A stretch of DNA of 56,776 nucleotides from Duncaniella sp. Its GTDB lineage: Bacteria; Bacteroidota; Bacteroidia; Bacteroidales; Muribaculaceae. Location: the NCBI GenBank assembly GCA_029061025.1, contig JAIDSW010000076.1, positions 1 through 56,776 of the forward strand, written 5' to 3'. Numbering within the stretch: the first letter of the stretch is position 1; every line of letters starts with the position of its first letter. This document shows positions 22,525 to 34,410 of the stretch, piece after piece. The notes beneath the pieces were generated by a model that saw only the letters and a program-made list of their open reading frames with translations, searched no databases and was not told the origin of the DNA. A program made the translations under genes and the position numbers.

Positions 22525-23442
22525 TTATTCTGATTTGAAAGTTGCCGCAATGGTATGTGCGAGGTTGTTCATCGACAGGCATGTATCGCGGGCAAGAGGT
22601 GTACAGGAGGGATAGCCGAGCGAGATAATGAGCAAGCGGCCCTGAGTACACAGCTCGAAATCATGAGCCGCGGGTTTATATCGGTCAGGAAACGCTTCGT
22701 GGGTGACCAGGATTATCTTGCCGCCAGTTGCCTCTGCTTCATTGCGAATTGCCTTTTCGGCCTGCGAAATAAACGGAGATACGAGCACACCTCCGTTGGC
22801 AGCGGTATAGAGCCATGTTTCCTTGTTTCGGGATAAGACTTCGGGGGAATCGGCCCGATGCACCACAACCTGCTCTTTAAACGGATTGTCAAGGAGATGA
22901 ATGTTGCCGTAAACCATGCACGCATGACCGGCGATATTCACACTGTCGCGCCGATTAAAGAAATCGGGGCAAGCGCGGCGCACGGCCAGTCGCCGGGGAT
23001 TGTCGCGGATATATGCAAACAAGGTGTTGAGATCCCTTTTGCTGGTAACAATCTGGTTGTTGAAGCCATCTTCAAATACGTGATTCTCGCCCGCGGCGAG
23101 ATTGACGGCATTCTTGAATCGCGCTATATAGAAGCCAAGATGCTCGGGAAGTGGCGATTGTACCCACAGCAATATGTGCACATGGTCAGGCATCACCACG
23201 TATTGATCGGCTCTCAGGGCGGGATGGATCGCACTCATGTTATAAATCAGATCAGCGATTTTCTTGCCTGTGTGGGACCAGCGGGTACGGCATGAGCCGC
23301 GGGTGCCGGCCGGAAGCTGCGGGTCTCCTTCAATAACACTTAACGGTGGAAAGTCGCGCCTTCGGGACAGCGTGATCATGTACCGGCATGACGAGCGGTA
23401 GTCGTGCCATAACGCACGCTTGAGCTGAGAGTTGCGAGCCAT
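22525..23442 (-). CDS. REP-associated tyrosine transposase (RAYT, Y1_Tnp/IS200-like) fused to a C-terminal DprA/SLOG-like domain
   Basis: HUH-type YVVMPDHVHILLW, IARFKNAVNLAAG, FEDGFNNQIVTSKRDLNTLFAYIRDNPRRL; C-terminal GGVLVSPFISQAEKAIRNEAEATGGKIILV. Confidence 0.8.
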   Translation of the reverse strand: MARNSQLKRALWHDYRSSCRYMITLSRRRDFPPLSVIEGDPQLPAGTRGSCRTRWSHTGKKIADLIYNMSAIHPALRADQYVVMPDHVHILLWVQSPLPEHLGFYIARFKNAVNLAAGENHVFEDGFNNQIVTSKRDLNTLFAYIRDNPRRLAVRRACPDFFNRRDSVNIAGHACMVYGNIHLLDNPFKEQVVVHRADSPEVLSRNKETWLYTAANGGVLVSPFISQAEKAIRNEAEATGGKIILVTHEAFPDRYKPAAHDFELCTQGRLLIISLGYPSCTPLARDTCLSMNNLAHTIAATFKSE

Positions 23443-23474: not shown

Positions 23475-23493
23475 GGGAGCTGAAGCTCCTACA
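23475..23493 (-). repeat. REP-like palindrome with GTAG foot, 33 bp upstream of the RAYT start
   Basis: Minus strand GTAGGAGCTTCAGCTCCC: GTAG followed by GGAGCT-TC-AGCTCC. Confidence 0.6.
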
Positions 23494-23559
23494 CACTTAC
23501 AAATATAGCAAATTTATTTGAAAAAGCTGCGAAGCTTCAGCTTCTGCCATAAAACTAAA

Positions 23560-31858: not shown

Positions 31859-32431
31859 CACCTTGAGGCGAGGCGCATGGTCATTCCTTCGGGGTGGGAG
31901 GCAAGCATCTCGGCCAATCGGTTGAGGCGGGCGGCCCAACGGTAGCTCATATTCTGCTTACGGGAATCGTAATTCAGCTCGCCTAAGAGCAGTAGCCTTC
32001 CTGATCCCGGCATTTCAAATTCCCTCCCCGAGGGTGAAAACCGCTCAGGAAAGCCGTTGTCGGTAATTCTCACTATCGAGCCGCCGCTCTCCACGGCCAT
32101 TTTTCTCATATCATTCTCCACCGGATGAATAAAGGGCGAGATGAGGACGCCTCCGTTTTCAATACAATCAATCCAGCCGTCACGATTGGCCTGCAACTGC
32201 GCGGGCGAATATTTTCTCGAAAACCTCACCTGCGACTGATCTCACAGCCCTCGGGGCATCATTCCCTTCCGCTTCAGCCGGATTGCCCGTTACGACAGAA
32301 AGTGCCGGAATGTGAGGCGCCACCTTGAGGGTGATCATATACCGGGCAGGGCGGGTATAATCATGGGGATGTGCACGGCGGTTGTAGCGCGGCGCAGCCG
32401 GCTCCCGCAAGTAGGGATTGGTATCATCCAT
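31858..32431 (-). pseudogene. Internally deleted, frameshifted relative of the RAYT-SLOG fusion
   Basis: N-terminal fragment (RPARYMITLKVAPHIPALSVVTGNP) and C-terminal fragment (SRKYSPAQLQANRDGWIDCIENGGVLISPFIHPVENDMRKMA) parallel the ORF at 22525-23442 but lie in different frames, and the HUH/Tyr core is absent. Confidence 0.72.
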
Positions 32432-32546: not shown

Positions 32547-33116
32547 ATGAAACTCACACTGACCCAATCGCAGATGAACGAGCGATGGCTCACTCTGCGC
32601 CGCCTCAACACCGTGCCGCTCGCGGCTGTCGTGAGCCGCAACGACGGCATCGACATGGATATGATAGTCACCGAGGAGGTGAAGAAATGGTATTTCAACC
32701 TGCTGCTCACGGCGCCCGAACACATGCTCGCGCCCCGCGATATTGAAGATGCACTCGAAGTGCGACCCGACGGCCGCGGCGGCGGGCAAGTGGTGGTGCC
32801 TCCCGAAGTGGTGAGAATACTTTCGGTGACGATGCGCGGCTGGAATGCCCCGGCACGCATCCTTCACGACAATGCTTTCCCCGAGGGGACGATACGCCGC
32901 GTGCGCCGCCGTCAGGCAAGCCCGCTCACCATGTCGGGACCTGACGATCCGGTGGCACTCATGCACTCAAATGTCATAAGCCTGTATCCGTATATCGACG
33001 GCGACGAATTGCTGACATTCCGCGCCGTGGTGATGACCGACGGCATTTATGAATTTGATTCCTCAGCTTTAACCACAATCTTAGAAGATGAACCGAAATA
33101 TGACTTCACCCTTTGA
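32547..33116 (+). CDS. Hypothetical protein, first gene of the portal-containing cassette
   Basis: ORF with clean start; overlaps the portal-like ORF at its 3' end. Confidence 0.7.
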   Translation: MKLTLTQSQMNERWLTLRRLNTVPLAAVVSRNDGIDMDMIVTEEVKKWYFNLLLTAPEHMLAPRDIEDALEVRPDGRGGGQVVVPPEVVRILSVTMRGWNAPARILHDNAFPEGTIRRVRRRQASPLTMSGPDDPVALMHSNVISLYPYIDGDELLTFRAVVMTDGIYEFDSSALTTILEDEPKYDFTL

Positions 33117-34410
33117 ACGCGCCCATGCGGCATGGGAGGCTATGGCACCGCTGCGCCGCTCCCGTACCAGGCTCAAGAATTTCACCTATGGCGACCAATG
33201 GTCGTGGCCCGTGGCCGATGCCTCGGGGCATATCATCACCGAGGGTGATGCCGTGCGCTCATTAGGCAAGACCCCGCTTACCAACAATCTGCTGCGTTCG
33301 CTCGTAAAGAGCGTGGTGGGGCGCTTCCGCTACAATATAGCCGCCGAGAAGCGCAAAGAAAGTGCCGCACCGGCCTTCAACCGCCTCGACGAACTGGATG
33401 CGCGCACTCTCGAGGAGTTTCTCATATCAGGCTGCGCCATTCAGCGCGTGGTGGCCGAGAAGCGACCCGAAGGATGCGGAGCGTGGGCCGACAAAGTCTC
33501 GCCGGCACTGTTTTTCTGCAATCCGTTCACTGACCCGCGCGGCACCGACATCGAACTTATAGGCATGCTCCACGAGATGGACTGCGAGCAGATGATAATG
33601 AGATTCGGACACGGAAATGCCCGACGGGCGCGCATGATACGCGACACGTGGCGTCGCAACTGCCGCGATGACGATTCTTCCACCGCTTTCTCACATCATC
33701 CCGGCACCTTTTTCAGCGCTTCGGCCGACGGTAAATGCCGCGTGATAGAGGTGTGGACGCTCGACTACACCGGCAACCGCCGCTCGGCATCGTCGTCAAC
33801 CTCTTATAAGGTGGAATGGCATTGCCGTTATTATGCTCCCTGCGGCATGCTGCTCGACCATACGGTATCGCCGTATGCCGACGGATCACACCCGTTTGTA
33901 GTGAAGTTCTATCCGCTCACCGACGGTGAGGTGCACCCCTTCATAGAGGATATCGTGGAGCAGCAGCGTCACATCAACCGCCTCATCACCATGATTGACC
34001 ACGTGCTGGCGGTATCGGCCAAAGGAGTGCTTCTGTATCCGCTCGAAGCGCAACCCGACGGTTTTTCGATAGCCGACGCCGTGGCGCTATGGAACCGTCC
34101 CGGCGGCGTGATACCCATCGACGGCACCGCAGGCCGCATTCCCACCCAGCTCAATTCCGAGGCGTCGACCGACAATGCCGCCCGTCTGCTCGACATCGAG
34201 ATGAACATGATGCGCCAGATTTCGGGCGTATCGGCGGCTCTACAGGGGCAGACTTCGGCCGCCAACCAATCGGCCACCATGTTTGAGAGCCAGATCCAAA
34301 ACTCAGCCATAGCCCTGCTCGATATTTTCGAGACTTTCAATACGTTCCGCACCGTGCGCGATGAAAAGCTTGCACAATGCGCCGGAATCTGCAAAATTAA
34401 CAGCAATTAA
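33088..34410 (+). CDS. Phage portal-like protein (P22-type family resemblance)
   Basis: RLKNFTYGDQWSWPV, GKTPLTNNLLRSLVKSVVGRFRYN, QQRHINRLITMIDHVLAVSAKGVLLYP, ISGVSAALQGQTSAANQSATMFESQIQNSAIALLDIFETFNTFRTVRDEK. Confidence 0.62.
   Translation: MNRNMTSPFERAHAAWEAMAPLRRSRTRLKNFTYGDQWSWPVADASGHIITEGDAVRSLGKTPLTNNLLRSLVKSVVGRFRYNIAAEKRKESAAPAFNRLDELDARTLEEFLISGCAIQRVVAEKRPEGCGAWADKVSPALFFCNPFTDPRGTDIELIGMLHEMDCEQMIMRFGHGNARRARMIRDTWRRNCRDDDSSTAFSHHPGTFFSASADGKCRVIEVWTLDYTGNRRSASSSTSYKVEWHCRYYAPCGMLLDHTVSPYADGSHPFVVKFYPLTDGEVHPFIEDIVEQQRHINRLITMIDHVLAVSAKGVLLYPLEAQPDGFSIADAVALWNRPGGVIPIDGTAGRIPTQLNSEASTDNAARLLDIEMNMMRQISGVSAALQGQTSAANQSATMFESQIQNSAIALLDIFETFNTFRTVRDEKLAQCAGICKINSN

Follow-up and report, generated by a model that had tools for sequence, protein, structure and literature searches.

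Results

Organisation of the locus

The analysed window, i.e. the whole stretch of 56,776 nucleotides, carries on its minus strand an open reading frame of 305 aa with two domains, which confirms the gene as it had been drawn in the first-pass annotation. A head-to-head pair of REP-like elements lies 34-102 bp upstream of it, and a second, decayed copy of the gene is found elsewhere in the window. The features are:

22525..23442, minus strand: RAYT-DprA fusion gene, 305 aa (ORF and relatives)
22948..23442, minus strand: N-terminal RAYT-like HUH/Y1 nuclease domain, residues 1 to ~165 (NF047646, Y1_Tnp, PDB profile, Foldseek)
23176..23184, minus strand: HUH motif H87-V-H89 (conservation among 31 relatives)
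23011..23013, minus strand: candidate catalytic tyrosine Y144 in YIRDNP (invariant, 31 relatives)
22528..22941, minus strand: predicted C-terminal DprA-like half-domain, residues ~168-305 (profile comparisons)
22753..22797, minus strand: DprA-like core motif GGVLVSPFISQAEK, residues 216-230, the probable counterpart of DprA VVSGLAxGID (alignments)
23476..23503, minus strand: REP-like element 1, TTTGTAAGTGTGTAGGAGCTTCAGCTCC (TTTG, 10 nt, 5-bp stem, TTCA loop)
23517..23544, plus strand: REP-like element 2, inverted, TTTGAAAAAGCTGCGAAGCTTCAGCTTC (same layout, compensated stem)
31861..32431 (ends approximate), minus strand: decayed second RAYT-DprA copy (HUH core lost)

The window also holds a long ORF at 33088-34410 (plus strand), which by eye is phage portal protein-like.

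The N-terminal HUH/Y1 domain

The N-terminal half of the protein contains the motifs MPDHVH (H87 and H89) and YIRDNP (Y144), and thereby the combination of an HUH motif and a single catalytic tyrosine in Y..NP that characterises RAYTs. Among 31 relatives H87 and Y144 are invariant, while H89 and N148/P149 are kept in at least 90%. The NCBIfam model REP_Tyr_transpos (NF047646) matched 30 of the 31 family members (best 2e-13) and Pfam Y1_Tnp matched 27, in agreement with the HUH/Y1 signature reported earlier from the sequence. The window protein itself gives 4.6e-8 with NF047646 and differs from RAYTs as modelled there in that it scores 33.1 of the 80 bits demanded by the curated cut-off, a value which no gene in the 149 genomes of the window's family reaches. 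In the PDB, the family profile retrieved Y1 transposases and TnpA-REP (2xm3, 2ec2, 4er8), and the top Foldseek matches of the whole-protein AlphaFold model (mean pLDDT 52, informative for the HUH part alone) were ISDra2, IS608 and TnpA-REP. One full-length fusion (locus L033, genome G088) has HVQ in place of HVH and has lost the NP of Y..NP, its C-terminal domain being intact, and is possibly a nuclease-dead derivative.

The C-terminal DprA-like half-domain

The C-terminal ~135 aa form a separate conserved domain, as had been proposed, which is present in every full-length relative and also occurs alone in other proteins. It was left unnamed by a Pfam search alone. A profile built from 34 of these domains brought up no PDB chains under E 0.05 other than four distinct DprA sequences, the direct matches being weak (E ~0.01). 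Profile-profile alignment (hhalign) of the fused domain with trimmed DprA cores of relatives gave an E value of 2e-4 over 127 columns, co-linear and domain-wide, compared with 0.09-0.77 for five column-shuffled DprA controls. The closest homologues found, aligning at 5.6e-10 with the fused domain, are short standalone DprA-like proteins of ~155 aa (L102-L105) from the order; they lack an HUH domain and reach further at their C-terminal end. Two of the three standalone relatives scanned matched Pfam DprA (PF02481; 6.7e-7 and 7.4e-5), and one matched the PADLOC model of the PsyrA antitoxin (4.5e-9).

In the alignment register the conserved Arg of VxxR in the C-terminal domain falls on the Arg of DprA GTR, the segment LVSPFIS..E on VVSGLA.GID and R..CL.MN.LA on the RNRIIAG segment. 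The domain thus shares with DprA/Smf the first half of the Rossmann core, with SG replaced by SP and the Asp of GID by a conserved Glu, whereas the later half with VVE..GGxLITA and the further domains of DprA/Smf are missing. Compared with what defines a DprA, i.e. a full Rossmann core with SGxAxGID and GG(S/A)LITA, only the first half was found and its motifs are altered; the domain-wide profile homology expected of the wider SLOG/DprA-like superfamily was present (2e-4 and 5.6e-10). AlphaFold, given three alignable sequences as input, left the C-terminal region unfolded (pLDDT ~30-55; mean 43 for the domain alone), and its fold is therefore read from the sequence profiles. Since the first DprA half is aligned and the second is missing, we infer a DprA-derived (SLOG-type) half-domain corresponding to the first part of the DprA fold, rather than a DprA. 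The DprA/SLOG likeness suggested by the first-pass annotation accordingly holds at the level of profile homology, but for the first half of the fold only.

The weak direct matches and the altered or missing SG..GID and GG motifs could also be taken to mean that the domain is some other Rossmann-type domain with a generic likeness to DprA. This seems unlikely to us, since all four top PDB sequences are DprA, the profile alignment is co-linear over the domain, and the standalone relatives tie it to PF02481.

Distribution and selection

Within the window's family, 49 of 149 genomes contain a match to the fusion protein, with a maximum of ten in one genome, and 42 of the genomes (counted by hand from the listings) have a strong one (E < 1e-20); most strong matches span both domains. 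Across 295 genomes of the order the C-terminal domain was present in 17, which belong to several families; most of the ORFs concerned are 320-530 aa long and have the HUH domain in front. In 396 genomes of the phylum, the matches listed outside the order align up to about profile position 165-200 and are mostly ORFs of ~170-230 aa, i.e. unfused RAYTs. Among these listed matches the fusion was thus seen only within the order, and the RAYTs elsewhere in the phylum are unfused. Unfused RAYTs are present in the window's family and in the window's genome as well.

The window's genome encodes two further full-length copies, 44% and 40% identical to the window protein. In the decayed copy at 31861-32431 the N-terminus and the still open C-terminal domain lie in different frames. 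For all eight pairs of close relatives with a defined ratio, dN/dS was 0.07-0.43 in both halves. Both domains are under purifying selection, and the fusion is an established, conserved family. A related gene (L038), from a record labelled Clostridium, nests within the same clade, so that either a mislabelled record or a transfer of the gene may lie behind it. Plasmids and phages gave no family match, and a scan of viral contigs with the family alignment gave no relatives.

At eight of the 38 loci with the gene located (L119-L121, L123, L124, L127, L128 and L135) the fusion gene lies downstream of a comM/yifB-type Mg-chelatase gene, directly or, in one case, with one ORF between; genes at this position are spread over several clades of the tree. 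Elsewhere, the comM/yifB-type gene is often found near dprA.

It may be asked whether the protein works through its DprA-like domain, with the HUH domain as a leftover, for example as a sensor of nucleotides or DNA in the manner of PsyrA, a DprA-like antitoxin. Three observations agree with such a role: the PsyrA match of a standalone relative, the HVQ-bearing fusion that keeps its C-terminal domain after its second HUH histidine became Gln, and the decayed window copy, in which the HUH core is lost and the C-terminal domain still open. We nevertheless regard it as unlikely, given that H87 and Y144 are invariant, that the N-terminal half is under purifying selection, that the genes are accompanied by REP doublets (see below) and that the window protein itself has no match in PADLOC. 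For the last reason a defence role of the window protein was also dropped.

The REP-like doublet at the gene

The inverted doublet at 23476-23544, which is the arrangement that flanks RAYT genes, had been overlooked in the first-pass annotation, where the absence of IS200-type ends was noted; indeed no IS ends are evident in the gene flanks. The stems of the two arms differ (GGAGC/GCTCC versus GAAGC/GCTTC), and both pair. Folding reproduced arm 1 as drawn; for arm 2 the energy model favours an alternative stem. An Rfam search around the gene gave no match.

Inverted hairpin pairs are also found in the upstream DNA of relatives, and some genes have hairpins on both sides. A strong inverted pair (score of at least 14, within 400 bp upstream) is present at 17 of 68 fusion genes and, among the control genes next to them, at 8 of 268 (p 8e-8). 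The TTTG-hairpin layout, which was derived from some of the loci then counted, occurs upstream of 19/68 fusion genes and 24/268 controls (p 1e-4). Other boxes in place of TTTG gave 1-12 matches, and GTAG was found in a single one of the 68 upstream regions. The REPs at these genes are therefore not GTAG-footed, as the palindromes of RAYTs were described in the first-pass annotation: where RAYT-associated REPs have GT[AG]G at the foot of the hairpin, these have a TTTG box at a distance of 9-11 nt from it. In the other families of the order, a clear doublet is rarely seen at the fusion genes.

Dispersed copies in the genomes

The motif of the L038 flanks matches genome G149 at 43 places with no more than one mismatch, and the reversed control at none. 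Fifty-one elements read from this genome fall into four main stem types, with 152 of 153 variable stem cells paired (permuted controls: mean 100, maximum 122), and they avoid ORFs, as 30 of 47 lie outside despite an ORF coverage of 82% (p 6e-12). A motif of the window type, TTTG-N10,11-GAGCTTCAGC, occurs 13 times in G117, 17 times in G113, 11 in G140, 6 in G102 and 5 in G007; reversed as a control, it occurs at most once in any genome. The outer stem pair varies by genome yet remains paired, being C-G in G117, T-A in G113 and G-C in the window.

The motif of the paralogue L002 in the window's genome, TTTGTCTYCGGGTG (14 nt), has 20 exact matches in that genome, is present in only 11 of the 149 family genomes and has no conserved hairpin. 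It stands in tandem at the flank of the L002 gene (G000, contig C251, 14332-14466) as well as dispersed in the genome, and it has the TTTGTC box in common with the hairpin-bearing elements. No second copy of the window gene's own REP type was found in its genome (87% complete), and amplification of this REP there was accordingly rejected. Dispersal of a cognate REP is thus absent for the window gene and present for the paralogue, G117, G140 and G149. The REP processing suggested in the first-pass annotation therefore stands in outline, through the doublets and the dispersed copies in relatives, without the GTAG foot.

The association between REP-rich genomes (split by hand from the listings) and a fused RAYT has a p of 0.002 overall and 0.18 after removal of the genomes from which the motifs had been taken. 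Three genomes, G006, G007 and G113, are REP-rich (22, 5 and 17 matches) and have no fused RAYT. Perhaps the fused RAYT was lost there or another RAYT serves these REPs; the elements would be either orphans or served by an unfused RAYT.

The HUH/Y1 domain, the up to ten copies per genome and the hairpins flanking some genes on both sides are what one would also expect of an ordinary IS200/IS605-like insertion sequence which carries an accessory domain and transposes as a unit. This we consider very unlikely. The copies in the window's genome are 40-44% identical to the window protein and not near-identical; L002 and L023, from two species, share their position and the sequence downstream of it; L003 and L200 are closest relatives across different species; the dispersed elements are short and gene-less; and plasmids and phages have no match.

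Discussion

The two-domain anatomy, the intact motifs, the purifying selection, the doublets and the dispersed, stem-covarying copies are best explained if the protein is a RAYT-like HUH transposase that has been domesticated in Bacteroidales, ends in a truncated DprA domain of the SLOG type and handles REPs of the TTTG-hairpin kind, and we consider this probable. The protein is neither a canonical RAYT nor a full DprA, as each assignment fails on a tested feature. Like RAYT/TnpA-REP proteins (Quentin subclasses 2.2, 2.4, 2.5, 2.7 and 2.8) it combines an HUH motif with a single Tyr in Y..NP, has no IS ends and is encoded beside inverted REP doublets, the cognate REP being dispersed extragenically in relatives. 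Unlike them, the family has a large C-terminal DprA-like domain, and its REPs carry TTTG 9-11 nt from the hairpin instead of GT[AG]G at the hairpin foot.

According to the part of the 2018 TnpA-Y1 classification considered here (PMC6006769), the REP-associated subclasses carry GT[AG]G tags, and a small number of proteins of excessive length were excluded, being regarded as fusions or errors of annotation. Large C-terminal domains are described there for subclasses 2.1 (HTH/DnaA-like) and 2.3 (subclass-specific), but neither is associated with REPs, whereas the present family has a DprA-like domain together with REPs. Subclass 2.6 shares the phylum (Bacteroidetes) and REP-like structures without GT[AG]G, but has a median length of 179 aa, the motifs NH[LIV]H and YIH[QN]NP and, in the same part of that text, no described DprA domain; nor is a DprA-like domain mentioned elsewhere in that part. 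A further study (PMC3733652) describes the GTAG and CGTC superfamilies and not TTTG. Full-text literature searches, whose scope leaves out most subscription papers and preprints, gave nothing relevant that joins RAYT or HUH with DprA and nothing relevant on REPs in Muribaculaceae; a prior mention of any of these in such sources is possible. Relative to PMC3733652 and the considered part of PMC6006769, we judge the family to be a RAYT variant that is new and has a REP class of its own.

If the protein acts as RAYTs and the IS200/IS605 enzymes do, its HUH domain would recognise the hairpin of the REP in the single-stranded DNA of the replication fork, a step supported by the association of the hairpins with the genes; the hairpin repeat of the relatives looks like the target of the fusion enzyme. 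The left end of IS200/IS605 has its cleavage site 5' of a hairpin, and as TTTG is similarly placed, 9-11 nt 5' of the hairpin, the box may serve as the tag, and our guess is that the enzyme nicks nearby. It may then move or copy the REP doublet, as proposed for RAYTs and REPINs. DprA handles and binds single-stranded DNA in recombination, and the DprA half-domain, for which binding of nucleotide or ssDNA had been suggested in the first-pass annotation, might hold or protect the single-stranded intermediate, or tether the enzyme to the intermediate or to a partner; this role is the least certain part of the mechanism. It is possible, and we offer this tentatively, that the family constitutes a REP/REPIN system of its own kind, in which TTTG-tagged hairpin doublets are spread in Bacteroidales and the built-in DprA half handles the single-stranded intermediate in place of the host factors on which other RAYTs would depend.

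In the published classification, as far as the considered part of PMC6006769 goes, REP processing and a large C-terminal domain belong to separate Y1 proteins, and the fusion family appears to combine the two. Its extra domain would derive from a protein that handles single-stranded DNA in recombination, and such a natural fusion gives a testable hint as to which factors take up the REP single-stranded intermediate. A REP class of the abundant gut Bacteroidales, TTTG-N9-11-hairpin, is defined by the family as well; we found no earlier REP literature on these bacteria.
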